Of a stretch of DNA of 64,000 nucleotides, positions 989 to 50,554 are shown piece by piece. The translations under genes and the position numbers were made by a program. Positions within the stretch are counted from its first letter, which is position 1; each line of letters begins with the position of its first letter. This DNA comes from Longimicrobium sp. (GTDB lineage Bacteria; Gemmatimonadota; Gemmatimonadetes; Longimicrobiales; Longimicrobiaceae), in contig DASUYB010000143.1 in assembly GCA_036377595.1 (NCBI GenBank), forward strand, positions 1 through 64,000, written 5' to 3'. Below the pieces are notes generated by a model, which saw only the letters and a program-made list of their open reading frames with translations, was not told the origin of the DNA and did no database searches.

Positions 989-1072
989 GCTCCTGTGGCG
1001 GAACTGGTAGACGCGCTAGATTCAGGATCTAGTGGGCGCAAGCCCGTGGAGGTTCGAGTCCTCTCGGGAGCA
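989..1072 (+). tRNA. tRNA-Leu (anticodon CAG)
   Basis: The acceptor arm GCTCCTG pairs with CGGGAGC at 1065-1071, with A1072 as discriminator; CCA is not encoded. The D-loop contains CTGGTAGA. The anticodon stem CTAGA/TCTAG encloses TTCAGGA, placing CAG at 1023-1025. A long class-II variable arm (GGGC-GCAA-GCCC) and a T-loop TTCGAGT complete a leucine tRNA reading CUG. Confidence 0.97.
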
Positions 1073-1108
1073 CTGTCCGCGGCACGAACGCACCGGCTGG
1101 GTTGTGAT

Positions 1109-1192
1109 GCCCAGGTGCTGAAACTGGTAGACAGGCCAGACTAAGGATCTGGTGCCTTAACCGGCGTGGAGGTTCGAGTCCTCTCCTGGGCA
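1109..1192 (+). tRNA. tRNA-Leu (anticodon AAG)
   Basis: The acceptor arm GCCCAGG pairs perfectly with CCTGGGC at 1185-1191, followed by discriminator A1192. The D-arm CTG/CAG, class-II variable arm and T-loop TTCGAGT are intact. The anticodon stem CCAGA/TCTGG encloses CTAAGGA, so positions 34-36 are AAG. Bacterial CUU/CUC is normally read by a GAG tRNA. An A34 leucine tRNA is unusual and would need inosine formation or would read mainly CUU. It follows tRNA-Leu(CAG) by 36 nt, presumably in one transcript. Confidence 0.93.
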
Positions 1193-1211
1193 CTGCCTGA
1201 TTGAAAATACG

Positions 1212-1601
1212 GGTCGGGAGGCGAGTGAGGATCGCGGCGCGCCCTGAGCGCGTCGAGGAAAGTCCGAGCTCCGCAGGGCAGGGTGCCGGCTAACGGCCGG
1301 GCGCCGCAAGGCGACGGAAAGTGCCACAGAGAACAGACCGCCGATGGCCTCCGCTGGGGGCACAGGCAAGGGTGAAACGGTTGCGGTAAGAGCGCACCGC
1401 CCCGGCGGCAACGACGGGGGCAGGGCAAACCCCACCCGGAGCAAGGCCGAACAGGAACGAGGGGCGGCCCGCCCCGCGAAGGATCCAGGTCCTTCACAGT
1501 TCCGGGTAGGCCGCACGAGGCCGCCGGCAACGGCGGTCCCAGAGAAATGATCCTCGGCCCGGCAACGGGTCTACAGAACTCGGCTTATTCCGCCTCCCGC
1601 T
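1212..1601 (+). ncRNA. rnpB: RNase P RNA, bacterial type A
   Basis: This is the catalytic RNA that removes tRNA 5' leaders. Conserved blocks appear in order: GAGGAAAGTCCGAGCTCC near 1255, GGAAAGTGCCACAGAGAACA near 1316, GGTAAGAGCGCACCGC near 1384, GCAAGGCCGAACAGG near 1441, and ACAGAACTCGGCTTAT near 1572. The ends close by pairing CGGGAGGCG (1215-1223) with CGCCTCCCG (1591-1599), the P1 helix. It lies between tRNA genes, fitting its role in tRNA maturation. Confidence 0.96.
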
Positions 1602-1608
1602 CGACTGC

Positions 1609-1682
1609 GCGCCCGTAGCTCAGCTGGATAGAGCGCTAGCCTCCGGAGCTAGAGGTCACAGGTTCGAATCCTGTCGGGCGCA
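1609..1682 (+). tRNA. tRNA-Arg (anticodon CCG)
   Basis: The acceptor arm GCGCCCG pairs with CGGGCGC at 1675-1681; A1682 is the discriminator. The anticodon stem CTAGC/GCTAG encloses CTCCGGA, giving CCG at 1643-1645, which reads CGG. The T-loop TTCGAAT is standard. Its last 27-28 nt are repeated at 2986-3013, so this gene may be an integration target. Confidence 0.96.
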
Positions 1683-24283: not shown

Positions 24284-25302
24284 GCGGCCGCGCGGGTGCG
24301 GGGGGACGGGAACCGCGCGCGAAGCAGGGTAACGAGGTGTCGCATCTCCAGTCCCCACCGGGTGATGGGCGAAATCTCCGCCGTGCCGCGGGCCGCCAAC
24401 TGGTGCTCGAGGATGGCGGACGCGGGGACGAACCAGCCGTCGCGGCCGGCCACGTGCCGCAGCGCGTCCTCCACCTCGGGATCGACCCGGCCGCCGCGCG
24501 CGAACCCCTTGCCCAGATGCGTGGAGAGGATGCAGGCGCCGCCTTCTTCCACGAGTCGATCGACGGCCGGGCGCGTGACCAGCCGCTTGAACGCGGCGGC
24601 GTCGGGCGCGTCGGCGGTGCTGAACCAGTGCTGCACCCACGGCGTCGACCCCAGGCGATACGGACCGTGCGGAGGGATGGCGCCGGAGTTCAGCACGGGG
24701 AAGGTGAAGCCGCGCACGAACCTGAAGCGCGCGCGGCACGCGTCGCCCCAGAAGCGGGGAGAGGTGGCGACGTGCCCGTCGAACCGCGGCCGCCGCGCGA
24801 TGCGCTCTGCGGCGAGCAGGGGAAGGCGGAGGAGCGCCGTGCGGTAGCGGTGCGCGCCCCAGTACAGGTTCTCGCCGTTCTGCCCGTGGTTGCAGTGAAT
24901 GGACATCGGCGCGCCGACCTGCTCGTCCAGGAAGCGCAGGCCGCGCAGCGTCCGCTCGCGGTCGCTGGTTTCCATCGTGGCGCCGTGGAAGGCGAGTTCG
25001 AACCCGCGCTCCACCAGCCCGCGCACGAAATCGAGGTATTCGGGATCCTGCAGCGTCGCCCCCGCGAAGTACAGGTCGCTTCCCTCCGGGCAGTCCAGCG
25101 GCCACGCCGTCTTCGTGGTCCGCATCCCCAGCGAGTGCAGGAGATCGTAGACCGGCCGCACGTTCTCCACCGTGGCGTCGTCGGTGTCGTCGAGGATGGT
25201 GAAGGCGAAGCGCTTCCCGCCCGGATACAGGCCGCCGCCGCGAACGGCTGCGTCCGCGGCGGACGAGGGAGAGGGCGGGGGAGAGAGGACGGCGGACATC
25301 AT
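24280..25302 (-). CDS. NodB-like / polysaccharide deacetylase-fold protein
   Basis: The 340-aa protein begins its core with FAFTILDDTDDATVENVRPV, a divergent form of the NodB aspartate motif, and continues with LLHSLGMRTTKTAWPL, ERGFELAFHGATMETSD (histidine), SIHCNHGQNGENLYWG and ACILSTHLGKGFA. It looks like a divergent beta/alpha-barrel deacetylase; activity is not certain. Tandem ATGs at 25302/25299 follow GGAG and overlap the upstream stop (TGATG). Confidence 0.72.
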   Translation of the reverse strand: MMSAVLSPPPSPSSAADAAVRGGGLYPGGKRFAFTILDDTDDATVENVRPVYDLLHSLGMRTTKTAWPLDCPEGSDLYFAGATLQDPEYLDFVRGLVERGFELAFHGATMETSDRERTLRGLRFLDEQVGAPMSIHCNHGQNGENLYWGAHRYRTALLRLPLLAAERIARRPRFDGHVATSPRFWGDACRARFRFVRGFTFPVLNSGAIPPHGPYRLGSTPWVQHWFSTADAPDAAAFKRLVTRPAVDRLVEEGGACILSTHLGKGFARGGRVDPEVEDALRHVAGRDGWFVPASAILEHQLAARGTAEISPITRWGLEMRHLVTLLRARFPSPRTRAAA

Positions 25303-26339
25303 CACTCCGGCACCGCGGGCGCGACGGCCGCCGCGGGGAGCGCGCGACCGCGCGGCGTGGCGAGGAGGTCGTCGAGCTCGCGGACCAGGTCGTCGCGCAG
25401 CCGCTCCTCGCCGCCCAACGACAGGGCGAAGCGGCGCCCGCGTTCGCCGATCTCCGCGCGGAACGCCGCGTCCAGGGCCACGCGGGCGACGGCGGCGCGC
25501 AGCGCGTCCGCATCAGCGGGCGGGACGATCGCGGCGACCGTGTCGTCCAGAACGTCGCGCGTGGCCGCCGACTCGGTGATGATCACCGGCTTCCCCATCG
25601 CCATGGCCACCAGCAGCGTGCTGATCCCCGACGGCGAGAGCATCCCGGGGACGATGGGAAGCACCACCGCGCGGCAGCGGGCGATCCACGCGTTCCACGA
25701 GGCGGGCGTGCCGTCGTCCGCCACCCGCTCCACGTTCTCCGGCCAGTCGACGGCATCCTCCCGCGTCCCGTGCTCCTCCACGCGTCCCCACGGCGCCAGC
25801 ACGACGCAGCGGTGCGGCGATCCGCGGAACGCACCGCACAGCGTGGTGAAGTCGCGGTTCGATCTCCCGCAGGCCAGGAAGAACCCCTCGTCCACGGTCT
25901 CCGTCCGCAGCACCTGGTCGTGCGTGTTGACCTTGAAGGGGACGTAGCGCACGCGGTCCGGCGGGATGGCGTAAACGCGGCGCAGCTCCGCCGTGTCGCG
26001 GAAATAGAAGACGAAGCGGTCCACCGCGCCCAGCAGCCAGCGGCGCACGGCAAAGCGCATCCGGCCGCGCGCGGCTTCGGGGCGGGTGAGCACCAGGTCG
26101 GCGGAAAGGATGCGGCAACGGGCGAAGGGGAGGAGCTTCTTCGCCGCGCAGAGCAGCAGGAGCGAGCGCACGTCGATGTTCAGCAGCGCCGCGTCGTACC
26201 GCCACACCGCGAGGCAGCGCGCGACCGCCCGCCACCCGCGGGCGCGGTCCGCGCGCACGGGCGTGACGGCGCGGCCGCCGAGCGTGCGGCCGTCCAGCCA
26301 CGGCGTGTTGGTCAGCACGCGGAGCGGGGGCGGGCTCAT
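25302..26339 (-). CDS. GT-B type glycosyltransferase
   Basis: The 345-aa product has an atypical N-terminal half (LRVLTNTPWLDGRTLGGRAV) but a GT1/GT4-like C-terminal domain: FFLACGRSNRDFTTLCGAF, VVLAPWG, and VLPIVPGMLSPSGISTLLVA followed by MAMGKPVIITESAATRDVLD, the donor-binding region. It probably adds a sugar in the same pathway as its operon neighbours. GTG 26342 is an alternative start. Confidence 0.8.
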   Translation of the reverse strand: MSPPPLRVLTNTPWLDGRTLGGRAVTPVRADRARGWRAVARCLAVWRYDAALLNIDVRSLLLLCAAKKLLPFARCRILSADLVLTRPEAARGRMRFAVRRWLLGAVDRFVFYFRDTAELRRVYAIPPDRVRYVPFKVNTHDQVLRTETVDEGFFLACGRSNRDFTTLCGAFRGSPHRCVVLAPWGRVEEHGTREDAVDWPENVERVADDGTPASWNAWIARCRAVVLPIVPGMLSPSGISTLLVAMAMGKPVIITESAATRDVLDDTVAAIVPPADADALRAAVARVALDAAFRAEIGERGRRFALSLGGEERLRDDLVRELDDLLATPRGRALPAAAVAPAVPE

Positions 26340-26346
26340 CACCGGC

Positions 26347-27378
26347 TCACTTGCGGTAGCGGCGCCCCTTCCCGGACGCGATCAGCGCCAGGGAATGGAG
26401 CCGGGCCCAGTAGTACAGCCAGTACAGGGCCAGGTTGGGCGCCAGCGCGGCCACCCGCCGCGCCTTCGCGCAGCGGTACGCCACCGTGGCCGCGGGCACG
26501 GCCAGCTGCAGCGCCAGCGCGCCGCCCAGCGCGGCGGGGAGGGGAACGCCCGGCCGGAAGAGGAGCGCCACGCCAGCCAGCGTGCAGGCCAGATGCGCCG
26601 CCATCATCGCCAGCGGCCGGTCGAACCGCGGGCCGCCGACGGTGGCGAACATCCCCAGCCCGTGCCACACGGTGCGGCGCCAGAACTCCCGGATCGAGCG
26701 CGGGTTCCCCAGGTGTACCACCGACACACGCGCGCATTCCCAGATGGGGAGCCGCGCCTCCAGCAGCCGCCGCCCGATCTCCGAGTCCTCGCCCGTGGCC
26801 AGGTCTTCGCGGAACCCGCCGACCGCGTCGAACGCCGCGCGCGAGATGAAGAAGTTCGCCGAGTTGAGGTAGTGCACGAACCGGTCGCGGCCCACGAAGT
26901 GGAGCGCGTCCCAGGCCGCCTCGATCCAGTGCCCCCCTTCCGGCGCCCGCGCCTCGCACCCGGTGGCGGCCGCGCCCGTCCGCCCCAGCGCCGCGATGGC
27001 CTCCTCGAGGTAGCCCTCGGGGACCAGGCAGTCCGCGTCGACGAAGGCGAGGTACGCCCCGCCGCCCTCGCGCGCGCCGGCGTTGCGCAGCGCCCCGATG
27101 CTGCCACCTTCCCGCCGGATCACCCGCACCCCGTCCGGCTCCAGGCTGCGGAGGAACTCGTACGAGCCGTCGGTGGAGCCGTGGTCGACGTACACGACCT
27201 CGGCATTGCCCCAGCACCGTGCCGCCGCGAGCACCGACGGAACGGTGTCGCGCAGGTAGCGCATGGTGTTCAGCACCGGCACCACGAGGGTGACGCCCGC
27301 CGCGCGCGTCTCCACGCCGGGCGCGCCGGATGCCGCGGCGCGGGCCTCGTCCGCCGCGGGGAGAGAGACCGCGCTCAC
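26347..27378 (-). CDS. family 2 glycosyltransferase with C-terminal membrane helices
   Basis: The 343-aa protein has a 28-residue Ala-rich leader, then VTLVVPVLNTMRYLRDTVPS, VVYVDHGSTDGSYEFL, GALRNAGAREGGGAYLAFVD with the D-A-D site, and ATGEDSEIGRRLLEA. Two or three hydrophobic segments follow after residue 240. GTG 27378 overlaps the stop of the CapK-like gene (GTGA). Confidence 0.87.
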   Translation of the reverse strand: MSAVSLPAADEARAAASGAPGVETRAAGVTLVVPVLNTMRYLRDTVPSVLAAARCWGNAEVVYVDHGSTDGSYEFLRSLEPDGVRVIRREGGSIGALRNAGAREGGGAYLAFVDADCLVPEGYLEEAIAALGRTGAAATGCEARAPEGGHWIEAAWDALHFVGRDRFVHYLNSANFFISRAAFDAVGGFREDLATGEDSEIGRRLLEARLPIWECARVSVVHLGNPRSIREFWRRTVWHGLGMFATVGGPRFDRPLAMMAAHLACTLAGVALLFRPGVPLPAALGGALALQLAVPAATVAYRCAKARRVAALAPNLALYWLYYWARLHSLALIASGKGRRYRK

Positions 27379-28802
27379 GCGGCGGCCTCCCACGCGAAGC
27401 GGCAGCCGTGCTCCACGCGCGACACCACCCAGCGGAACTTCCCCGAGCGCTCGCGCGGGATCGAGTCCACGCGCTCGATCTCCACCGCCATCCCCGCGCC
27501 CAGCCGCGCGGCCAGTTGCGCCACCAGCGCGGCCTCGTCGCCGGCGGTGAACGCTTCGCCCGCCACCAGCTTCACCTGCAGCCGGTCGGCGCGGTCCTGC
27601 ACCAACTGCGACTCCCGGATCTGCGGATAGGGCTTGAAGGGATGGGTGAGCACCGAGGGCGAGATCATCCGTCCGTCCGGCGTCACCACGATGTCCTCGG
27701 CCTTGGTGGTCACCGGCTCGATGCGCGCCAGGGTGCGGCCGCAGGCGCAGGGCTCGCGGCGGATTGCGGTCACGTCGCCCGTGCGGTAGCGCAGCAGCGG
27801 CATGGCCGTGTTGTGCAGCGACGTCCCCACCAGCCAGCCGGGCGTCCCGTCGGGCACCGGGTTCCCCTCGTCGTCCACCACCTCGGCCACGCCGTACTCC
27901 TCGGCCAGGTGCTTCCCGTCGTGCGCGGCGCACTCGGTGGCGAAGAGGGTGCGCTCGGCGTGGCCGTAAAAGTCGAACGGCACGCACCCGAACGCGGCCT
28001 CCATCGCCTCGCGCTGCACCTGGTGCAGCGTCTCCGACGAGGTGAACACCGCGCGCAACGGCAGCGTCTCGCCGCGCGCCAGCAGGTGCCGGGCGAGGAT
28101 GAAGAGGGTGGAGGGATACCCTTCAAGGAAGCGCAGTCCGCGGCGGCGGATCTCGTCCACGTAGCGCGGCAGGTGCTGCGGGGACAGGTGGAACGACGAG
28201 AACCAGACCTGGCGGTGGACCGCGTTCACCCGCCAGAACGGCGGGCGGGCGGCGTCCGTGGGCACGATCACCCGCCCCAGGAGGAGGCCGATCCAATCGC
28301 GCTCGCCCATTCCGCCCCACGCTTTCTGGCGGCGGTCGACTGCGTCGTTCATGACACAGGTGTTGCGGGTGTACCACAGGGAGAGGGGGGATCCCGTCGT
28401 CCCGCTGGTGTGCCCGTGCGCCCAACTCCGCCCCGGCCGGGGCTTCGTCCAGAGTTCCGCCGCCCGCCCGCGCACCGTCTCCTTGTCCAGCAGCGGCAGC
28501 CGGGGGAGGTCGGCGACTCCGCGGACGTCGGCGGCGCCGACGCCGGCTTCGTCCATCACCCGGCGGTACCAGCGACTGCGCTCGTACGCCACGCGCACCA
28601 CCTCGCGCAGGCGGTCGTCCTGCCACGCGCGCAGCCGCTCGGCGGGCCAGCGCTCCGACTCGGCCAGCAGCGCCACGGCCGCCCTGTACGGCGCGCCGCG
28701 GCGGTAGGCGGAGATGCGAAGTCCATAGGCGTTCAGCAGGAGCGTCTGTGCCCAGGCGGGAGAGCGCCGGTACAGCGCGTCGGAAGAGATCGAGAGGGGC
28801 AT
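27375..28802 (-). CDS. CapK / phenylacetate-CoA ligase-like adenylating enzyme
   Basis: The 475-aa protein belongs to the adenylate-forming superfamily: HTSGTTGSPLSLWYTRNTCV is the P-loop-like A3 motif, FDFYGHAERTLFATEC corresponds to the A5 region and LLRYRTGDVTAIRREPCACG to the A7 motif with a Cys-rich insert. CapK-like proteins occur in capsule loci and probably activate an acyl or amino-acid group for transfer onto the polymer. It is the first gene of the 28,802->22,522 operon and divergent from the DUF362 gene. Confidence 0.87.
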   Translation of the reverse strand: MPLSISSDALYRRSPAWAQTLLLNAYGLRISAYRRGAPYRAAVALLAESERWPAERLRAWQDDRLREVVRVAYERSRWYRRVMDEAGVGAADVRGVADLPRLPLLDKETVRGRAAELWTKPRPGRSWAHGHTSGTTGSPLSLWYTRNTCVMNDAVDRRQKAWGGMGERDWIGLLLGRVIVPTDAARPPFWRVNAVHRQVWFSSFHLSPQHLPRYVDEIRRRGLRFLEGYPSTLFILARHLLARGETLPLRAVFTSSETLHQVQREAMEAAFGCVPFDFYGHAERTLFATECAAHDGKHLAEEYGVAEVVDDEGNPVPDGTPGWLVGTSLHNTAMPLLRYRTGDVTAIRREPCACGRTLARIEPVTTKAEDIVVTPDGRMISPSVLTHPFKPYPQIRESQLVQDRADRLQVKLVAGEAFTAGDEAALVAQLAARLGAGMAVEIERVDSIPRERSGKFRWVVSRVEHGCRFAWEAAA

Positions 28803-28861
28803 CCGGACGGGAAGGGCTCGGGAGGACCGCCGCCGGCGCGCGGCGGCGGCCGCCCTGCGGG

Positions 28862-28876
28862 GCAAGGACGATGCCC
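28862..28876 (-). promoter_or_regulatory. sigma54-like promoter of the 28,802->22,522 operon
   Basis: Minus strand: GGGCAT-N5-TTGC, keeping GG-N10-GC and the full TTGC. It ends 60 bp before the CapK-like start. No matching palindrome is visible upstream, unlike the other sites. Confidence 0.4.
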
Positions 28877-29002
28877 GTTCCGCCCCACGCGCAGCCGCGT
28901 TCGGGGCGCGAGGCACGGATCTTCCGCCCCGTCGCCGCCGGGCCGCACCCCTCCCCGGAGCCGCCCGCCCCGCCACTCCGCTCCCCCCGGGATCCGACCC
29001 TG

Positions 29003-30472
29003 ATGAACGTGGTATCCGTGTGCCGCGACGGCGCCTTGGCGTACCCCGCGCCGCACGACCACTCGCCGCCGGAGCCGTTCCCCGAATCGCCCTTCCCCGG
29101 CGCGCCCCCGGGTGGCAACCGCGTCTACGCCCTGGTCCGCCGCGCGCTGCAGGCGTCCGGCGCCGATGCGGGCCGCTTCGGCACCCCCGCGTGGAACCCG
29201 CTGGGCGAGTGGATTTTGCCCGGCCAGCGCGTGTTCGTGCTTCCCAACCTGGTGGTGGAGCGGCGGCCGGGCGAGCCGGAGGCGGACTTCCGGGGGAAGT
29301 GCACGCACGGCTCGGTGCTCCGTGCCGTGCTCGACTACGCGGCGCTCGCCGCGGGCGGGGCCGAGCGGGTGCGGTTCGGCAACGCGTCGCTGCAGTCGTG
29401 CGACTACGCGTCGGTGGCGGCGGAGACGGGCGCGGCGGCGGTGGGCGCCTTCTGGGCGGAGCACGACGGTGACCGCGGCCCGCTCGACCTGCGTGCCACG
29501 GTGACCCGGTGGACCCGCTTCGGCGCGTTGCTGGAGCGCCGGACACGCCACCCCGAAGACGTGGTGCACGTGGACCTGGGGGCGGACAGCCTGCTCGACG
29601 AACTGTACCGCGGCGGCCCGGCGCCGGAGTTCCGGGTGGGCGACTACGACCACCGCGAGATGGCCGAGTACCACGCCCCCGGCCGCCACGTCTACGCAGT
29701 GCACCGGGCCGTGCTCGAGGCCGATGCCATCGTAAGCGTACCCAAGCTCAAGACGCACGAGAAGGTGGGGATCACCTGCGCGCTGAAGGGCACCGTGGGC
29801 GCCATCGCCCGCAAGGAATGCCTGGCTCACCACCGCAAGGGCGGTGCGGGGCAAGGTGGAGATGAGTACCCCGGCGGCACCCCCGTCCACCTGCTGGCGT
29901 CGGAGATGGCGGACCGGGTGACGACGATGGACGCCGGAGTGGGCGCGAACCTGGTCCGGGTAGCCAGCAAGGGGCTGTACCGCGCGCTGCGCGTGGGGCC
30001 GGGAATCATGGCGGGGGGATGGCACGGCAACGACACCGCGTGGAGGATGGCGCTCGACATCGCCCGCATCCTCCGCTTCGCGCGGGCGGACGGCACGCTG
30101 GCGTCCACGCCGCAGCGCACGCACCTGGTGCTGGTGGACGGGATCGTGGGCGGCGAGGCGGAGGGGCCGGTGTATCCGCGCGGCAACCCCTGCGGGGCGG
30201 TGGTCTTCGGCAGCGACCCGGTGTGGGCCGACGTGGCGTGCGCGCGGGTGATGGGCTTCGATCCCGCCGCCATTCCCCTGGTGGCCCGGGCGCTCGACCC
30301 GCTGCCGTACCCCGCGACGGAACTGCGCGAAGGTGACGTGCACGTGATGGTGGACGGAAGCCCCGCCGGCCTGGAGGACCTCAACCGGGTGCTGGAGCGC
30401 GGCTTCGTTCCGCCCAAGGGATGGAAGGGACATGTGGAGGCCGGCCGCCTTGGGACCGCCGCGATCGACTGA
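29003..30472 (+). CDS. DUF362 domain-containing protein
   Basis: The 489-aa protein carries the DUF362 signature: VFVLPNLVVERRPG with a nearby HGSVLRAVLDYA, then EADAIVSVPKLKTHEKVGIT and CALKGTVGAIARKECLAHH, and late LVLVDGIVGGEAEGPVYPRG and CGAVVFGSDPVWADVACAR. DUF362 function is unknown; some members have ferredoxin domains, absent here. It is transcribed divergently from the CapK operon. ATG 29003 is chosen because upstream sequence is intergenic in character. Confidence 0.88.
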   Translation: MNVVSVCRDGALAYPAPHDHSPPEPFPESPFPGAPPGGNRVYALVRRALQASGADAGRFGTPAWNPLGEWILPGQRVFVLPNLVVERRPGEPEADFRGKCTHGSVLRAVLDYAALAAGGAERVRFGNASLQSCDYASVAAETGAAAVGAFWAEHDGDRGPLDLRATVTRWTRFGALLERRTRHPEDVVHVDLGADSLLDELYRGGPAPEFRVGDYDHREMAEYHAPGRHVYAVHRAVLEADAIVSVPKLKTHEKVGITCALKGTVGAIARKECLAHHRKGGAGQGGDEYPGGTPVHLLASEMADRVTTMDAGVGANLVRVASKGLYRALRVGPGIMAGGWHGNDTAWRMALDIARILRFARADGTLASTPQRTHLVLVDGIVGGEAEGPVYPRGNPCGAVVFGSDPVWADVACARVMGFDPAAIPLVARALDPLPYPATELREGDVHVMVDGSPAGLEDLNRVLERGFVPPKGWKGHVEAGRLGTAAID

Positions 30473-30822
30473 GCGCCGCCGCAACCGTTGGAGTCCGGTG
30501 GTCAGGAGACGTGGTGGACCTATCCCCTCGCGCAATCCCCAGGATGTCTCAACAGCATTGAATCTCACGGAGGGAACAGAGGGAACGGAGGAAATCAGGT
30601 CGGTCCTCCCTTCCCCTCCGTTCCCTCCGTGTGGTTTATTTTTAACCGTGATTCGAATAGCACGGTCATCCGTCGAATCCGGGCTACGCGGAGCCGCGGA
30701 GGACGCGGAGACGAACCCTCGTGCAGTTCTCCGTGTTCTCCGCGTGAGGAAAAGCAGCTCTCGACTCCGCACGGTAGCCTGACCCGAAGGGGATGAGCCG
30801 GCTCCGGAGGCGCAATGCACCA
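30473..30822. repeat. two imperfect long hairpins between convergent genes
   Basis: Between the DUF362 stop and the Big2 lipoprotein stop lie two repeat-like hairpins. One spans about 30563-30632, where CACGGAGGGAAC pairs with GTTCCCTCCGTG and a T-rich TTTATTTTTAA follows. The other spans about 30684-30748 (ACGCGGAG... with CTCCGCGT). They match the style of the hairpins at 45411, 54152 and 60157. The first looks like a plus-strand terminator. Confidence 0.6.
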
Positions 30823-30854
30823 CGGCCCGGGATCCGATCGGGATCCCGGGCCGC
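30823..30854 (-). terminator. terminator of the Big2 lipoprotein gene
   Basis: CGGCCCGGGATCC pairs with GGATCCCGGGCCG around a 5-6 nt loop, 25 bp beyond the minus-strand stop. Confidence 0.7.
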
Positions 30855-30878
30855 CGCGCGTGAGAGCGTCCGCGCCGC

Positions 30879-32693
30879 TTACGGCAGGCGCCCGGTCGAG
30901 AGGCTCACGTTGTCCCAGTAGCGATACTCGTCGAAGGTCCCGTTGTAGTTGACCTGGTCGCCCACCATGAAGTACCGGAAGCGCTGGGCCGACGGGCTGT
31001 ACGTCCACCCGGGGTCGCTCCAGCGGAAGTCCGTCTTCTCGTACAGGAGCCGGCCGTCCACCCAGATCCGCACGATGCCGTCGCTGGACGTGTACGCGGA
31101 GTTGAGCGTGATCTGCATCTCCACCTGGTACCAGCGCCCCGGCTGCAGCGTGCCCAGCTCCGGCGACATCACCTCCACCGCCCGCCCGTCGGTGCCCACG
31201 TAGCCGCCCGAGAACTTGAGCGCGTATCCGAACGAGGTCAGGATCGCCCAGAACTCCGGCACCCCGGTGCTCAGGTCGCGCTGCCAGTACAGCAGCTTGC
31301 GCGCGGCCTGCTCCGAGCCCGCCAAGGGCGGCGCAAAGTACACGTCGCCGCGGAAGAAGATGCTCTGCCCCAGCCCGATTCCCGGCACGTACTCGGCCCC
31401 GAACGAGCGGTTGAGGTCGGCCGCGGTCCCCGCGTAGTGGATCTTCACCACCTTGCCGTGGCCGCCGCCGGTGGGGTCCGTCGCCACCGACAGGTCGTTG
31501 GGCGCCTGGGTGTAGGGGTAGACGTACGGCAGCAGGCTGCCGTTCTCGAAGTCGCTCGAAGCCAGCACCGTGGCCGTGCCCGGGGTGCCGCCGCTGGTGG
31601 CCGTCTTCACCGTCACCGGCGCGGTGGCGGTCTTCCCCTCGGCCGTGGCGGTGATGGTGGCCGAGCCGTCGGCCAGCGCGAACACCACGCCCAGCGGCGA
31701 CACGTTGGCCACCGTCGGGTTGCTGCTGCTCCAGGTGACCACGCGACCGGTCAGCGCGGTGCCGTTCGCGTCCTTGGCGATGGCCGAGGCCTGGGCGTTC
31801 TGCCCGGGCGCCAGGGTGAAGGACGAGGGCGATATCGAAAGGGTGGCGATGGGCGTCTGCTGCACGCTCACCTGCGACTGCCCGGCCGCGCCCGACGCGG
31901 CGGTGGCGGTCACCATGGCGCTTCCCTCGGCCACGGAGTGGACCACGCCCGACGGGTCGACGGTGGCCACGGCCGGGTTCGACGACGCCCAGGTGTAGCT
32001 GGTGCCGGGCACGGCCGAGCCGCCGGCGTCGGAAGCGACGGCCGACAGGTTGAGCGTCTGCCCGGTGGCGAGGGTGACGGCGGCGGGCGAGATGGCCACC
32101 GCCGTGACGAGCTGGACGACCTGGATCATGGACGTGTCCGCCTTTCCGCCTGCGGCGGCCACCACACGGGCAAGGCCGGTGCCGCGGGCGCGGACCAGCC
32201 CGGCGGGGGTCACGGACACGACGGTGCTGTCGGCGGTGCTGAACGAGGGGACGGCGTTGACCTGCTTCCCGGTTCCGTCGTAGGCGGTGGCGCTCAGCTG
32301 CACGCTGTCGCCGATGGCCTTCAGGATGTATGCGTCGGGGGTCACCACCACGCTGGCGATCTGCCTCGGCTTCACCCGCACCGTGGCGGTGCTGGCGGCC
32401 TTGCCGTATACCGCGGTGACGGTCGCCTCGCCGTCCTTCAGCCCGGTGACGTTGCCACTGGCATCGATCGTGGCCACGGAGGGCGCCGAGGTGCGCCACT
32501 CGGGCGAGCCGCCGCCCGACACCGTGGCGGTCAGGTGCGCGGTCTCGCCGGGCGCCAGCTCCACCTCGGGCGTGGCGATCTGGATGAAGACCTCGCGCGT
32601 GGATCCCACGGCCGAGCCGCTGCCGTCGCATGCCGCCAGGGCGGCCGCGGCGGCGGCGGGGATCACGATACGAAGCTTCCGAAACAGGTTCAT
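30879..32693 (-). CDS. Big2 (bacterial Ig-like) surface lipoprotein with lectin-like C-terminus
   Basis: The 604-aa product has a lipoprotein signal peptide ending ALAAC (Cys 22). Four Ig-like group 2 repeats follow between about residues 35 and 365, each with the W-x-S-S-N/D-x-x-V-A-x-V-x-x-x-G core, e.g. TWSSSNPTVANVSPLGVV. Residues 380-604 look like a concanavalin-A-like/polysaccharide-lyase-type jelly roll (SIFFRGDVYFAPPLAG, GRWYQVEMQITLNS). It is likely a surface adhesin or polysaccharide-binding protein. A c-di-GMP-I riboswitch candidate lies in its 5' leader, fitting c-di-GMP-controlled adhesion. GGAG lies 9 nt before ATG 32693. Confidence 0.87.
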   Translation of the reverse strand: MNLFRKLRIVIPAAAAAALAACDGSGSAVGSTREVFIQIATPEVELAPGETAHLTATVSGGGSPEWRTSAPSVATIDASGNVTGLKDGEATVTAVYGKAASTATVRVKPRQIASVVVTPDAYILKAIGDSVQLSATAYDGTGKQVNAVPSFSTADSTVVSVTPAGLVRARGTGLARVVAAAGGKADTSMIQVVQLVTAVAISPAAVTLATGQTLNLSAVASDAGGSAVPGTSYTWASSNPAVATVDPSGVVHSVAEGSAMVTATAASGAAGQSQVSVQQTPIATLSISPSSFTLAPGQNAQASAIAKDANGTALTGRVVTWSSSNPTVANVSPLGVVFALADGSATITATAEGKTATAPVTVKTATSGGTPGTATVLASSDFENGSLLPYVYPYTQAPNDLSVATDPTGGGHGKVVKIHYAGTAADLNRSFGAEYVPGIGLGQSIFFRGDVYFAPPLAGSEQAARKLLYWQRDLSTGVPEFWAILTSFGYALKFSGGYVGTDGRAVEVMSPELGTLQPGRWYQVEMQITLNSAYTSSDGIVRIWVDGRLLYEKTDFRWSDPGWTYSPSAQRFRYFMVGDQVNYNGTFDEYRYWDNVSLSTGRLP

Positions 32694-32796
32694 CTTTCTC
32701 GTCTCCAGTCCAATTGCTGTCGGTTGTCCGACCGGACCGGCCATTTTCCGCCATGACAGACGGGGCCGCCGGGAGGGACTCCTCGCTAGGGGAAGT

Positions 32797-32900
32797 CGAC
32801 CTCGCTGGCGGCCCGGCGGACGTGGCAGGACGAGTCCCGCGGTAGTCCCGTAGCTCTGCGTCGCCGCCTTTCGGCGGTTTTGCTCTGAGCAGCTGTGTCG
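32797..32900 (-). ncRNA. c-di-GMP-I (GEMM) riboswitch candidate
   Basis: On the minus strand the 104-nt element is closed by CGAC/GTCG and GCTG/CAGC pairs. It contains GAGCAAAACC, a GAAA tetraloop hairpin CCGCC-GAAA-GGCGG, then the hallmark GACGCAGAGCTACGGGACTA and a late CGCCGGGCCGCC. Order and sequence follow the GEMM-I consensus (GGCAAACC, GNRA hairpin, GACGCAAAGCC, receptor, GCCGGGC). It precedes the Big2 lipoprotein by 104 nt. Confidence 0.82.
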
Positions 32901-32970
32901 AGGGGCGTGCCCGACCCGGCGCCCTGGATGGCGGGCGCGCGGTGGGCCTCGGGTTGTCGAGTTTTGCGGC

Positions 32971-33004
32971 AAAAAGAAAAGCAACGGGCATTCCAGCCCG
33001 TTGC
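32971..33004 (-). terminator. intrinsic terminator upstream of the riboswitch
   Basis: Minus strand: GCAACGGGC-TGGAAT-GCCCGTTGC followed by TTTTCTTTTT. It is a perfect 9-bp stem with a U-run, the best terminator in the window, and lies 70 nt before the riboswitch. Confidence 0.85.
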
Positions 33005-33044
33005 CTGTGCGCTCGCCGCTGCGCAAGTGCTTACATCACAAGCA
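33005..33044 (-). ncRNA. possible short RNA or attenuated leader
   Basis: A minus-strand RNA starting near 33044 from the promoter at 33051-33079 would reach the terminator at 32971 after about 70 nt. It contains two small hairpins, GCTT-GTGATGT-AAGC and TGCGC-N8-GCGCA. It could be an independent sRNA or the terminated leader of the Big2 transcript. Confidence 0.4.
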
Positions 33045-33050
33045 GTTGCA

Positions 33051-33079
33051 AAGATATTGCAGAAGCATTTGTTTGTCTA
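33051..33079 (-). promoter_or_regulatory. sigma70-type promoter
   Basis: Minus strand: TAGACA at 33079-33074, a 17-bp spacer, then TATCTT at 33056-33051. It lies in a local AT-rich patch, unusual for this window, and points toward the terminator and riboswitch. Confidence 0.5.
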
Positions 33080-33112
33080 CCCCCCTCTTGCATGCCGCAA
33101 CGATTCACGCAA

Positions 33113-33146
33113 AACGACCACGCGAAATGTGATACGTGGTCGCCCG
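33113..33146 (-). terminator. hairpin downstream of the aminotransferase operon
   Basis: CGACCACG and CGTGGTCG form a perfect 8-bp stem; on the minus strand TTTTGCG follows. It probably ends the 36,459->33,315 transcript. The rest of 33150-33310 shows nothing recognisable beyond a GCTTAT/ATAAGC hairpin. Confidence 0.55.
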
Positions 33147-33314
33147 TGAAGTGCTCGCGGACCAGACTGCCGCGGCACTGCTTATCGAAGCATAAGCTCA
33201 GGAAAAAGAACGTATTACGCAGATGGGCGAAGGTCGCGGAGAATCGAGCCCCTCTGCTACGTCAGTTGCTGCGCGTGGGGACGGTCTTCCATGATCCGGA
33301 GGTGAGGGAAGGGA

Positions 33315-34553
33315 CTACACGTACACCGGCGGCTCGGTCGGATCGACGTCCATGCTGCCGTCGAATCCGCGCGCGGGAATCGGCGGCGTCGTGCCGCCGT
33401 GGAGCATGGAGACGATCGCCTCCAGGTCACGCGGCGTGAGACGGGAGTGCGTCGGAAGGGTCACCAGCCGCGCGGCGAGCTCCTCGGCGCCGGGCCAGCG
33501 CCGCTCGGGGCCGGCCAGCCGCGGCCGGACGGCGTCGAGCGAGCCAAGCGGCGTGGGATAGCCGCGGATGACGCCGAGCCGCGCCGCCTCCGCGGGGAGC
33601 GCGCGGTCGAGGAGGACGGGGAGGCGGAGGAAGCCCGGGTCCGCGCCGTCGACCGGGCGCATGCGGCGGATGCCGGGGATGCCGGAGATCGCGTCCAGCA
33701 GCGCGCGCGCGTTCCGGCGGCGCGCGTCGGCCTCGCGCTCGGCGGCGGCGCGGGTGCGGCGCAGCAGGACCGCGGCGGTGCGGGGAAGGGCGGACGGCGG
33801 GCGGGGGGGATGGTACACCGTCTCGCCCAGCGCCAGCCCGGGGACGGCGGCGGGGAGCGCGTACAGCGACGGCCGCCCCAGCATCCACTGCGCGGCCGCC
33901 ACGGCGACATTCGCGAACTCCTCCATCGTCCCCGCCGCGGGGATCGCGGGGAGCTCGATCTCCGCCGCGCGGGAGAGGAGCGCGCCGCCGCGGCCGCCGG
34001 TCCATCCCTTCCCGCGCCCGAAGCTGAGGACCGACAGCGCGCCGAATCCCCCCGCCGCCCGCCCGCGCCACGCCGCGCCGTGCCCCTGCGCCGCGTCCTC
34101 GATCACTATCGCCCCGTGCTTCTGCGCCAGCGAGAGCACGTCCCTCCACGCCGGGGGATATCCGTACGTCCACGCGGCCACCATCACGCGCGCGCCCGCC
34201 GCCAGCACGCGCTCGAGCGAGTCCAGGTCGGGCGAGAGGGTGAGCGGGTCGACGTCGTACAGGGCGATGGGCACGTCCGCGCCCACCGCCGCCGACGCCA
34301 CCTCGAAACAGGTGTACGCGGGGAGGGCCACGGGCGCGGAGGCGTCCCCCGCGGCAGCGTGCGCGGCGGAGACGGCCAGCTGCAGCGCCTGGGTGCCGCT
34401 GCCACAGAGGAGGCCGGACGCCGCGCCGTGCCGCGCCGCCAGCAGCGCGAGCAGCCGGTCGGCGCCGCCGCGGGCGGGGCGGAGCGCGGCGCCCGTGGCG
34501 GCCAGCAGCGCGCGCGGCGCCAGCGGCGAGTACGCGGCGAGCTGGCGGCGCAT
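33315..34553 (-). CDS. DegT/DnrJ/EryC1-family PLP aminotransferase
   Basis: The 412-aa protein follows the sugar aminotransferase pattern: SGTQALQLAVSAAHA (cofactor phosphate site), VALPAYTCFEVASAAV, VIEDAAQGHGAAWRGRAAGG and LSFGRGKGWTGGRGGALL with the presumed PLP lysine. DegT enzymes aminate keto-sugars, though some act on other substrates. It overlaps the FemAB gene by 1 bp and so belongs to the exosortase-associated deacetylase/FemAB operon. The C-terminus ends in a Pro/Asp-rich tail. Confidence 0.84.
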   Translation of the reverse strand: MRRQLAAYSPLAPRALLAATGAALRPARGGADRLLALLAARHGAASGLLCGSGTQALQLAVSAAHAAAGDASAPVALPAYTCFEVASAAVGADVPIALYDVDPLTLSPDLDSLERVLAAGARVMVAAWTYGYPPAWRDVLSLAQKHGAIVIEDAAQGHGAAWRGRAAGGFGALSVLSFGRGKGWTGGRGGALLSRAAEIELPAIPAAGTMEEFANVAVAAAQWMLGRPSLYALPAAVPGLALGETVYHPPRPPSALPRTAAVLLRRTRAAAEREADARRRNARALLDAISGIPGIRRMRPVDGADPGFLRLPVLLDRALPAEAARLGVIRGYPTPLGSLDAVRPRLAGPERRWPGAEELAARLVTLPTHSRLTPRDLEAIVSMLHGGTTPPIPARGFDGSMDVDPTEPPVYV

Positions 34554-35614
34554 CAGGGGAAGTGGCGGGAGAGCGCGGGGCCCAGGCGGTTCGCGACCGC
34601 CATCGGCAGGCGGCGCCAGGCGGAGACGGCCAGCCGGTACGCCGCGCCGTCGGCCGAGGGCGTCCCCGCGTCTCCGCCGGGCGACCAGGTGATCCAGGGG
34701 AGCACGGCCTCGGTGCCGCCCCACTGCTGCTTGAAGCGGTGCGTGGGGCCCCCCGGCGTGCATCGCCCGAACGAGAACACGCGCTGCCCGCGGGCGATCG
34801 CCTCGCGCATCAGCCCCCAGTACAGCAGCATGTTGGGCGCGGCCGCGTTGTGCTCGCGCAGCGACGACGCCCAGGTGATCTCCATCTCCCCGCCGGAAAG
34901 GAGACAGCAGGCACCGGCGACCGGCTCGGCGCCGCGGTACACGGCCGCGAACACGGTCTCGCCGCCGAAGTGCCGGGCGATCGCGGCGAACCAGGGGCGG
35001 GGGAGGACGGGCGTGCCCAGGTCGCGCATGTTGCGCGCGAACACCGCGTAGAACGCGTCGAGCTCGCCGTGGCCGCAGCGGAACTCCATCCCCTCCTTCT
35101 GCGGCCGCTTGATCTGGCTGCGGAGCTTGGCGCGGAAGCCCTTCTCCCACAGCTCCTCCGCCGTGCCGGGGAGGGCGAGGTAGCTGCCGACCTTGCGCGG
35201 CGGCGCCGTCGCGGCGGGGAAGGGGAGGTCCGCGCGGAGGCGCAGCTCCAGCACCTTCGCGCCCGATCGCTTCGCCTCCTCCAGCGCGTGCGTGGCGAGA
35301 AGCGCGCGCGCCTTTTCGTCCCCCAGCGGTCCGCCGTCGTTCAGGAAGGGCATGGAGACGAGGTGGTGGCCCGTCAGCCGGCTGCGCACGCGGACGAGGG
35401 GAAGCACGCCGCGCCACTCGCCCTCCTCGTCCTCCGCCGCCCAGAGCAGCGTCTCGTGGCCCAGCACGTCGGCCATCACCGCGCGCCAGGCGGCCCGGTG
35501 GCAGAGCGTGGCGCCCTCGCCGCCGCGCACGAACGCGTCCCACCGCGCCGCGTCGTCCGTCGCCGCGACGCGGAGCGTGGAGGCGGGCGCGGCGGTCAGG
35601 CCGGGAGCGGGCAC
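34553..35614 (-). CDS. FemAB family protein, exosortase/PEP-CTERM-system type
   Basis: The 353-aa protein matches FemAB-like proteins found beside exosortase systems: ATLCHRAAWRAVMADVLGHE, SMPFLNDGGPLGD, FRAKLRSQIKRPQKEGMEFR, AVFARNMRDLGTPVLPRPWF and SFGRCTPGGPTHRFKQQWGG. It probably transfers an amino acid or acyl group during exopolysaccharide synthesis. GTG 35614 overlaps the deacetylase frame by 19 bp and has GAGG upstream. The order deacetylase-FemAB recurs in such loci. Confidence 0.87.
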   Translation of the reverse strand: MPAPGLTAAPASTLRVAATDDAARWDAFVRGGEGATLCHRAAWRAVMADVLGHETLLWAAEDEEGEWRGVLPLVRVRSRLTGHHLVSMPFLNDGGPLGDEKARALLATHALEEAKRSGAKVLELRLRADLPFPAATAPPRKVGSYLALPGTAEELWEKGFRAKLRSQIKRPQKEGMEFRCGHGELDAFYAVFARNMRDLGTPVLPRPWFAAIARHFGGETVFAAVYRGAEPVAGACCLLSGGEMEITWASSLREHNAAAPNMLLYWGLMREAIARGQRVFSFGRCTPGGPTHRFKQQWGGTEAVLPWITWSPGGDAGTPSADGAAYRLAVSAWRRLPMAVANRLGPALSRHFP

Positions 35615-36459
35615 GGCGCCTCGGCGGGGTGCGGGGAAGCGGCGAGCCCGAGCGTGCGGGCGATGGGCTGGAAGCGGAACTCGCCCAGCAGGCGCCGCAG
35701 CCGCGGGACGGTGCGCGTCAGCCCGCCGTAGTGGCGCAGGCGCGTCTTCGGCGACACGCGGAAGCGCGGCTGCTCCGGGTCCAGCTCCCACGGGTGGATG
35801 TAGAAGGTGCCGGGGACGCCGCGCCGCTCCGCCTGCCGCAGCGCGTTGGCCACGACGCCGAACGGCAGCAGACGCAGGAACGCGCCGCCGCCGGCCGGAA
35901 AGACGCGCCCCGCGACGCGCAGGGTGGCGGGGGGAAGCTCGTGCAGCGTCCCGGCCTCGCGGGCGATGCGGTGCGGGTCGCGCGCGTCCGCGGGCCAGCC
36001 GTGGCCACGGCCGGGAAAGACGCTGGAGTCGTACGCGTAGCCCTCCTCCAGCAGCGCGTCGAACGCCCACGCGCGCTCGGGGGTGATGGAGAAGCTCGGC
36101 GCGCGGTACCCCAGCACCGGCGCGCCACCGGCGTCTTCCAGCGCCGCTTTCGAGTCACGGATCGACGCTCGGAACTGCTCCGGCGTCAGCGACGACACCC
36201 GCTCGTGGCCCCACCCGTGCGACGCCACTTCGTGCCCCGCGGCCGCGACGTCGTGCACCAGCGCGGGGAGCCGCGCGGCGACCCAGCCGAGGACGAAGAA
36301 GGTGCCCGTCGCGCCGTGCCCGGCGAGCAGGTCCAGCAGCCGGCGCGTGGACGCGTCGACGCGGCTGGGGAGGCGCTCCCAGTCGGCGCGCGGCACGTAC
36401 GGTTCCAGCGCGTGGACCTGGAAGTGCTCCTCGACGTCTACCGTGAAGTGGTGATTCAT
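35596..36459 (-). CDS. polysaccharide deacetylase, exosortase (XrtA)-system type
   Basis: The 287-aa protein begins at once with FTVDVEEHFQVHALEP, the D-V-E-x-x-F start typical of deacetylases in PEP-CTERM loci, then SHGWGHERVSSLTPEQF (metal histidines), LGYRAPSFSITPERAW and a C-terminal FYIHPWELDPEQPR region of the DUF3473 kind. It would de-N-acetylate the exopolysaccharide. It is first in its operon; a candidate sigma54 site and palindrome lie upstream. Confidence 0.9.
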   Translation of the reverse strand: MNHHFTVDVEEHFQVHALEPYVPRADWERLPSRVDASTRRLLDLLAGHGATGTFFVLGWVAARLPALVHDVAAAGHEVASHGWGHERVSSLTPEQFRASIRDSKAALEDAGGAPVLGYRAPSFSITPERAWAFDALLEEGYAYDSSVFPGRGHGWPADARDPHRIAREAGTLHELPPATLRVAGRVFPAGGGAFLRLLPFGVVANALRQAERRGVPGTFYIHPWELDPEQPRFRVSPKTRLRHYGGLTRTVPRLRRLLGEFRFQPIARTLGLAASPHPAEAPCPLPA

Positions 36460-48313: not shown

Positions 48314-50554
48314 CTACAGCGGCTGTCCCGCGGTCACCATCCGCCGGGCCTCCTCGGCGTCCACCGGGCCGCCCACGAAGAAGCCCTGCACGAAGTCGCA
48401 CCCCAGGTCGCGCAGGCTTCCCATCTGCTCCTCGGTCTCCACCCCGCTGGCCACCACGGGGAGGTTCAGCGCGTGCGCCAGGCTCACGATGGCGCGCAGC
48501 ACCTCGGGGTCGGCCGCCGACTGCGCCAGCACCGAGCGGTGCACCTTCACCGCGTCCACCTCCAGCCGCCACAGCGAGCCGGGCGTCGAGCCCACCGTGC
48601 CGTACTGGTCCACCTGCACCACCACGCCCAGCGCGCGCAGGCCGCGGAGGACCTCTTCCACGCGCGGGTCGCCGAGCACCGCCTCCGACACCTCCAGGCG
48701 CAGCAGCGACGGCTTGGCGCCGGTCTCGGCCAGCACGCGGCGCACGTTCTCGACCCCGTCGGGCGACAGCAGCTCGCGCACCGACACGTTCACGCTGACC
48801 CGCGGCGAGCGGTCGCCGAACTGGCGCTGCCAGGCGTACAGCTGCCGGCAGGCCTCGCGCAGCACCCAGCGGTCGATCGCGGCCACCAGCCCCGTGTCCT
48901 CGGCCACCGGCACGAACTGGCCGGCCGAGAGGGTTCCCCGCTCGGGGTGGCGCCAGCGCACCAGCGCCTCGAACGAGGTGATGTGCCCCGTCTCCACCGA
49001 GATCACCGGCTGGTACTGCAGCGTCAGCCCGTCGCCGCGCACGGCCGTGCGGAGATCGGACTCGAGCTGCAGCCGCGCCAGCGTGCTCTCGTGCATCTCG
49101 CGGTCGAACAGCTCGTAGCGCGCCTTGCCGCCCTCCTTGGCGCGGTACAGCGCGGTGTCGGCCTGGCGCATCAGCTCGCCCAGGTCGTTCCCCGCGGTGG
49201 AGCTCACGGCGATGCCGATGCTGGTCGACACGAACAGCTCGTGCGGCGACAGCCGGAAGGGCGACACCAGCTCGGCGCGGATCCGGTCGGCCACGCGGGT
49301 CACGTCGCCCGGGTCGTGGATGGAGTGCAGGAGCACGGTGAACTCGTCGCCGCCCAGCCGGCACACGGTGTCGCCCGGTCGCACGCAGCGCTGCAGCCGC
49401 GCGGCGATGTCGATCAGCACGCGGTCGCCCAGCTCGTGCCCCATCTGGTCGTTCACGCGCTTGAAGTCGTCCACGTCCACCAGCAGCAGCGCGAACAGCG
49501 CCCCGGGCTCGCGGGTGGCGGCGCGGGCGGTGTGCTGCAGGCGGTCCAGGAAGAGCGCGCGGTTGGGAAGGCCGGTCAGCGGGTCGTGCAGCGCCTCGTG
49601 GGCCAGCTGCTCCTCGAGCCGCTTCTGGCGGGTGACGTCGCGGGCCAGCCCCTGCACCCCCGCCTCGGCGCCCTCGCGGCGCACGGGCGACTCGATCAGC
49701 TCCAGGAACACGGTGCGGCCGCTGCGGTGGCGGAAGCAGGACACGCGCGCGCCGTCGTGGTCGCCGCCCATCCCGTCGCGGCCGGGGATCTCGGGCTGCC
49801 CCGCGTCGGCCAGGCGGCAGAGCGGCGTGCCCACCAGCTCGTCGGGCGCGTAGCCCAGCACGCGGCTGACGCCGGGAGACACGTACTCCAGCACCCCCTC
49901 GGCGTCCTGGTGGTAGAAGAAGAGCGCGGCGCTCCCGTCCACCACGTGGCGCAGGATCTCGCCGGCGGCGTGCGCGGCGCCGGCGGCCGGCTCGGGCACC
50001 AGGTACAGAAGCGTGCACCCCTCGGGGAGCGCGGCCAGGCGCACGGTGGCGTCCTGGCGCTGCCCGTCGCGGCGCGCCAGGGCCAGCGACACCTCCTGGG
50101 TGGCGCCGGCGCGGGCGGCGTCGATCGCCTCCTGCGCGCGGGTGCGGTCCTCGGGCCAGATCAGCGAAAGGAAGGGGGCCTCGATCAGCGAGACGGCGGG
50201 CGCGTGCCAGAGGTGGCGGCAGGCGGGGTTGGCCGCGGCCACCCGCCCCCACGCGTCCACGGCGATCACCGCGTTCGGGTCGCTCAGGAACACGCCCCGG
50301 TAGTCCAGGCCTTCCGGGGCGCACTCCACCGGGGCGCCTCCCGTCTGCGCCGTCACGCCGGAGGGGAGCCGCTCCGGCCGCGCGATGTCGGCGGGCACAC
50401 TCGTTGGCTCCGGTGCGCGGGTAGAAGGAGGGCCGGCGGGTTGCCGGGGCGGATGAGCGCCAGTGTGGGGGGCAAGAAGCACGCAACCGTCCGGGGTCAC
50501 GCGGTGAAAGGACCGATGCTGCGCAAGTCGTTTTCCGGCAGGGTGATGCGACAT
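48314..50554 (-). CDS. PAS-PAS-GGDEF-EAL protein with a degenerate EAL domain
   Basis: The product is up to 746 aa. Two PAS domains (about residues 88-200 and 210-325) are followed by a GGDEF domain with intact LGGDEFTVLL (near residue 400) and an EAL domain (SFEALVRWRHP near 527). The diguanylate cyclase site is complete. In the EAL domain the loop-6 DDFGTG motif reads VDQYGTVGST, the lysine motif K-I-D reads KVH, and AEGVE reads ASGVE, so phosphodiesterase activity is doubtful. The start is uncertain: GTG 50398 has GGAG upstream and lies after the candidate sigma54 site at 50523. Confidence 0.9.
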   Translation of the reverse strand: MSHHPAGKRLAQHRSFHRVTPDGCVLLAPHTGAHPPRQPAGPPSTRAPEPTSVPADIARPERLPSGVTAQTGGAPVECAPEGLDYRGVFLSDPNAVIAVDAWGRVAAANPACRHLWHAPAVSLIEAPFLSLIWPEDRTRAQEAIDAARAGATQEVSLALARRDGQRQDATVRLAALPEGCTLLYLVPEPAAGAAHAAGEILRHVVDGSAALFFYHQDAEGVLEYVSPGVSRVLGYAPDELVGTPLCRLADAGQPEIPGRDGMGGDHDGARVSCFRHRSGRTVFLELIESPVRREGAEAGVQGLARDVTRQKRLEEQLAHEALHDPLTGLPNRALFLDRLQHTARAATREPGALFALLLVDVDDFKRVNDQMGHELGDRVLIDIAARLQRCVRPGDTVCRLGGDEFTVLLHSIHDPGDVTRVADRIRAELVSPFRLSPHELFVSTSIGIAVSSTAGNDLGELMRQADTALYRAKEGGKARYELFDREMHESTLARLQLESDLRTAVRGDGLTLQYQPVISVETGHITSFEALVRWRHPERGTLSAGQFVPVAEDTGLVAAIDRWVLREACRQLYAWQRQFGDRSPRVSVNVSVRELLSPDGVENVRRVLAETGAKPSLLRLEVSEAVLGDPRVEEVLRGLRALGVVVQVDQYGTVGSTPGSLWRLEVDAVKVHRSVLAQSAADPEVLRAIVSLAHALNLPVVASGVETEEQMGSLRDLGCDFVQGFFVGGPVDAEEARRMVTAGQPL
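50523..50537 (-). promoter_or_regulatory. weak sigma54-like site before the GGDEF-EAL gene
   Basis: Minus strand: CGGAAA-N5-TTGC with GG-N10-GC. If real, translation must start downstream of 50510. Confidence 0.3.

Follow-up and report, generated by a model that had tools for sequence, protein, structure and literature searches.

A putative c-di-GMP-I (GEMM-I) riboswitch lies upstream of a lipoprotein gene in Longimicrobium sp. (Gemmatimonadota), and the locus raises the question of which cyclic dinucleotide this RNA reads and how the signal would control the gene. The window, that is, the whole stretch of DNA analyzed, comprises 64,000 nucleotides (contig DASUYB010000143.1), and all positions are given in its numbering.

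Aptamer Family and Fold

When the window was searched with cmscan, the sole riboswitch match was to RF01051 (c-di-GMP-I) on the minus strand at 32894–32804. It covers the full length of the model (positions 1–87) with a score of 53.3 bits against a gathering threshold of 35 (E = 1.3e-7). The covariance check named in the original prediction was thus passed, and the element is a member of the GEMM-I family. The predicted span, 32797–32900, had the right locus with limits a few bases too wide on either side. All the motif strings quoted in support were found on the minus strand in the consensus order, and the P1 that had been thought plausible is formed by GCUG (32893–32890) and CAGC (32807–32804). 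The whole genome has nine RF01051 matches.

The aptamer (32804–32894, minus strand) was aligned with 38 relatives. The 39 sequences share the GEMM-I architecture of P1, P2 with a GNRA loop, and P3, with 95.9% of the cells paired and double changes at 14 of the 22 pairs; P1, P2 and P3 covary. The window aptamer has an A26–C41 mismatch at the base of P2.

Ligand Pocket

The key ligand-recognition positions in GEMM-I are G20, C92, A47, and A48 (PMC3764141), and we used Vc2 numbering anchored on the conserved positions given in that work. A47 and C92 (32808, minus strand), the latter being the Watson–Crick partner of the second ligand base, are unchanged in the window aptamer. The alignment shows that position 20 (32884, minus strand) is A, not G, with GAGCAAAACC in place of the consensus GGCAAA, and that position 48 (32856, minus strand) is G, not A, with GACGCAGAGC in place of GACGCAAAGC. 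The element had been described as consensus GEMM-I, which is correct for the family but not for the pocket; both changes lie within the quoted strings and were overlooked. As two of the four key contact bases are changed, the ligand must be tested, and c-di-GMP should not be assumed. The other long GAAA-loop aptamers of this genome, L003 and L005, are G20/A48. The genome also has a tandem of two short GCGA-loop GEMM-I aptamers (L004, G000:C120:10675–10839), and L006 is a short-type aptamer with A20.

A20 is a marker of cGAMP-sensing GEMM-I variants (PMC9481103) and the specificity base of the known cGAMP riboswitches (PMC9481103, PMC6274999). In the structurally characterized cGAMP riboswitch, from Geobacter, position 48 is an A, numbered A42 in that RNA (PMC6274999). 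Compared with this GEMM-Ib pocket, the window aptamer has the A20 but has G48 instead of A48. In the Cd1 riboswitch, the mutation G11A, which corresponds to G20A, does not abolish c-di-GMP binding (PMC9262584). This result, together with a covariance score well over the threshold, is consistent with an ordinary c-di-GMP-I riboswitch in which A20/G48 is a neutral lineage marker that leaves binding unaffected, and the distribution of the two bases among relatives bears on that reading.

A20/G48 Across Genomes

We collected 209 aptamers (150 A20/G48, 56 G20/A48, three A20/A48, and no G20/G48); many of these came from patterns that fix the letters at 20 and 48, and a fairer count is that of the 62 others, which were retrieved through their family score or their location. 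Among these 62, there are 18 A20/G48, 42 G20/A48, two A20/A48, and no G20/G48. The co-change has a Fisher p of 1e-13, uncorrected for relatedness and in a set for which some genomes were picked for holding an A20/G48 copy. Of 395 Gemmatimonadota genomes, 53 have the A20/G48 pair, and random drift of one copy was therefore rejected as the origin of A20; the pair is also present in records labeled Nitrospirota, Deltaproteobacteria, Desulfuromonadales, and Zixibacteria, among others.

In the 39-sequence alignment, P1 of the A20/G48 aptamers is a continuous helix of five pairs, with 97.9% of the cells paired and double changes at three pairs; such a continuous P1 was not seen in the G20/A48 set. 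Two short GCGA-loop aptamers (G011:C64 and G016:C23) have a canonical-type P1, yet carry A20/G48. Their sequences suggest that the pair of changes had more than one origin.

The genes downstream differ as well. In Gemmatimonadota, 55 proteins encoded behind A20/G48 aptamers were selected, and 41 of them have Big2 domains, compared with 2 of 22 for G20/A48 aptamers (p = 2e-7); the counts are approximate, as each protein is the longest ORF near its aptamer, hand-filtered for plausibility. Downstream of the G20/A48 aptamers, we instead found M23 peptidases, GGDEF/EAL/PAS proteins, and GH26. In 74 of 146 A20/G48 aptamers, a downstream segment can pair with the 3′ end of the aptamer and leads into a T-run; this is a lower bound because the 3′-end finder overlooks some. 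Shuffled sequences gave 1 of 146. Downstream of G20/A48 aptamers, the same arrangement occurs in 3 of 54 cases. About half of the A20/G48 aptamers are thus predicted to have a terminator that uses the 3′ strand of P1, and these would be ON switches.

Judged by these sequence comparisons, A20/G48 is a distinct and widespread GEMM-I subtype. Changes at positions 20 and 48 almost always go together, in different phyla and on both P1 backgrounds, and the subtype is set apart by its form of P1, its usual targets, and how often a terminator follows. These features make a neutral lineage marker improbable.

The A20/G48 and G20/A48 aptamers are often found together in one genome or even in a single leader. 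For neighboring aptamers separated by at most 300 nt, A20/G48 is followed by G20/A48 in nine cases and the reverse order occurs in two; like pairs number seven for A20/G48 and two for G20/A48. The retention of two subtypes in one genome or leader argues against a single ligand, unless their affinities differ.

Leader and Regulated Gene

About 110 nt separate the end of the aptamer from the ATG (32693), and a Shine–Dalgarno-like GGAG (32703–32706, minus strand) lies 9 nt 5′ of this codon. The 3′ end of the aptamer, GGGCCGCC, can pair with GGCGGCCC in a competing hairpin (32750–32826, minus strand; −38.3 kcal/mol, z = −2.57), which we propose as the expression platform. This hairpin is terminator-like with a poor U-tract, and its counterpart in the G011 orthologue is likewise without a good T-run. 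A further hairpin (32705–32740, minus strand; −18.3 kcal/mol, z = −2.44) is located directly 5′ of the ribosome-binding site, and its arms are kept in G011. Because the U-tract is poor, termination in the window is uncertain, and the case for an ON switch acting through a terminator is weaker here than in the relatives; translational control through the hairpin at the ribosome-binding site is possible. The weak T-runs in both genomes and the mismatch at the base of P2 could also point to a decayed copy that has retained its aptamer, lost the terminator U-tract, and ceased to switch. The G011 orthologue keeps the aptamer and both hairpins despite a diverged flanking leader sequence, and we consider such decay very unlikely.

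A scan for sigma-70 promoters gave one weak match (33079–33051), located 5′ of a terminator-like hairpin, and no promoter was assigned from it. One such hairpin, AACGGGCTGGAATGCCCGTTGC, is seen at 32979–33006 (minus strand), some 115 nt 5′ of the aptamer, and the G011 orthologue has a similar hairpin with a weaker T-run at the equivalent place.

The regulated gene (30879–32693, minus strand) encodes a 604-residue lipoprotein (LAAC, Cys22) with Big2 repeats (Pfam Big_2, E = 4e-33), which is probably a surface or matrix protein. The proposal that a Big2 lipoprotein is the target is borne out, with the aptamer in its leader and the same pairing in the Gemmatimonadota targets counted above. The C-terminal region matches Polysacc_lyase below the Pfam cut-off (E = 2e-5) and weakly resembles the alginate lyase 6kcw (E = 0.004); a single-sequence fold of this domain reached a pLDDT of 34 and was set aside. 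Four genomes have homologues of the C-terminal domain, at five places in total, and these follow A20/G48 aptamers with the same orientation. The nearby genes (25302–36459) include a glycosyltransferase, a DegT aminotransferase, and a polysaccharide deacetylase with DUF3473, and this is an exopolysaccharide-type gene neighborhood. GGDEF proteins had been expected in the same locus; there is one GGDEF-EAL protein (48314–50554), but it is about 16 kb from the aptamer and the link is weak. Three tRNA genes and an RNase P RNA gene are located at the start of the window (989–1682).

GGDEF Enzymes and the Ligand

In the window's genome, the GGDEF domains whose motif is readable have D at the selectivity position. 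A pattern search for Hypr-type (S348) GGDEF domains in the window's genome found none. Fifteen GGDEF domains of this genome have the canonical GHxxGD, and L021 also has the D despite an altered motif. In a positive control, the Hypr pattern was found in 56 of 58 genomes from the order of a Desulfuromonadales genome, which shows that the pattern works. Given the canonical D and the lack of a Hypr match, c-di-GMP is the leading candidate for the ligand in the window's genome, and cGAMP is its main rival.

The rival reading is that the A20/G48 subtype is a 3′,3′-cGAMP riboswitch with a specificity akin to that of Geobacter GEMM-Ib, the source of the ligand being a Hypr GGDEF or, for Gemmatimonadota, a different enzyme, for instance a CD-NTase or an N348 GGDEF. 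A20, as the published marker, speaks for it and counts against c-di-GMP. So does the presence of Hypr-type GGDEF domains (GHxxGS plus GGDEF) in five of the six A20/G48 genomes tested outside Gemmatimonadota and Desulfuromonadales, and the mixed tandems and the coexistence with the G20 subtype hint at two inputs. Against this, G48 would be an extra change that cGAMP does not need, the solved riboswitch having A48. Within Gemmatimonadota, the Hypr signature occurs in 12 of 395 genomes and in 3 of the 53 A20/G48 carriers (p = 0.21), leaving 50 carriers, including the window's genome, without it; a Hypr GGDEF as the general partner is unsupported there. A GGDEF with GHxxGN (N348) is present in 19 of the 53 carriers, which favors cGAMP at a Fisher p of 4e-5 that is confounded by kinship. 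This candidate partner was also rejected, as it is absent from the window's family and the association is confounded. A further point against cGAMP is that 31 carriers have neither the S348 nor the N348 form. We regard cGAMP as a real possibility, though short of an even chance.

The selectivity position is N in a family of GHxxGN GGDEF domains (L314–L343; Gemmatimonadota, mostly family f4), and this motif makes them candidate enzymes of altered specificity. Hypr-type domains (GHLAGS plus GGDEF; L235–L239) were seen in G010, G012, G013, G014, and G007; these genomes belong to the same genus as the window's genome, apart from one that shares its family.

To the model in which c-di-GMP is the ligand, we assign about an even chance. 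Here, the cyclic dinucleotide would bind at the three-way junction and stabilize P1 (GCUG/CAGC), and the 3′ strand of P1 would be withheld from the GGGCCGCC/GGCGGCCC hairpin. With the hairpin blocked, the Big2 lipoprotein would be expressed at high signal, presumably as an ON switch. The c-di-GMP would be read through a remodeled pocket in which A20 and G48 may compensate for one another. A broader reading, which we consider less likely than not, is that A20/G48 is a separate GEMM-I specificity class (for cGAMP from a non-Hypr source or another cyclic dinucleotide) and that the Gemmatimonadota leaders with A20/G48 followed by G20/A48 are natural two-input gates through which two cyclic dinucleotides control surface lipoproteins.

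Because two ligand-contact bases change together across several phyla, co-evolution of the pocket can be tested here in a riboswitch that is already well studied. With cGAMP as the ligand, these bacteria would be making it without a recognized synthase; with c-di-GMP, A20 on its own would be an unsafe guide for annotating cGAMP riboswitches. A Big2 lipoprotein family across Gemmatimonadota is also marked as a target of cyclic dinucleotides.

Comparison with Known Systems

The window aptamer shares with Vc2 and Vc1 of Vibrio cholerae (RF01051) the three-helix fold, the GAAA loop and its receptor, A47, C92, the C22–G45 pair, and a surface-protein target. It differs in having A20/G48 rather than G20/A48 and a continuous P1 without the bulged A95. 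With the Geobacter c-AMP-GMP (cGAMP) GEMM-Ib riboswitches it shares A20, and the known members of that group are ON switches that act through a terminator, like the layout proposed here. In contrast to that group, the window has G48 where the solved member has A48, and the Hypr GGDEF search of its genome was negative. Tandem c-di-GMP-I riboswitches have been described as 347 doublets (PMC9481103), and relatives of the window likewise have two GEMM-I aptamers per leader. In these relatives, an A20/G48 aptamer is paired with a following G20/A48 aptamer, whereas the leader in the window has a single aptamer.
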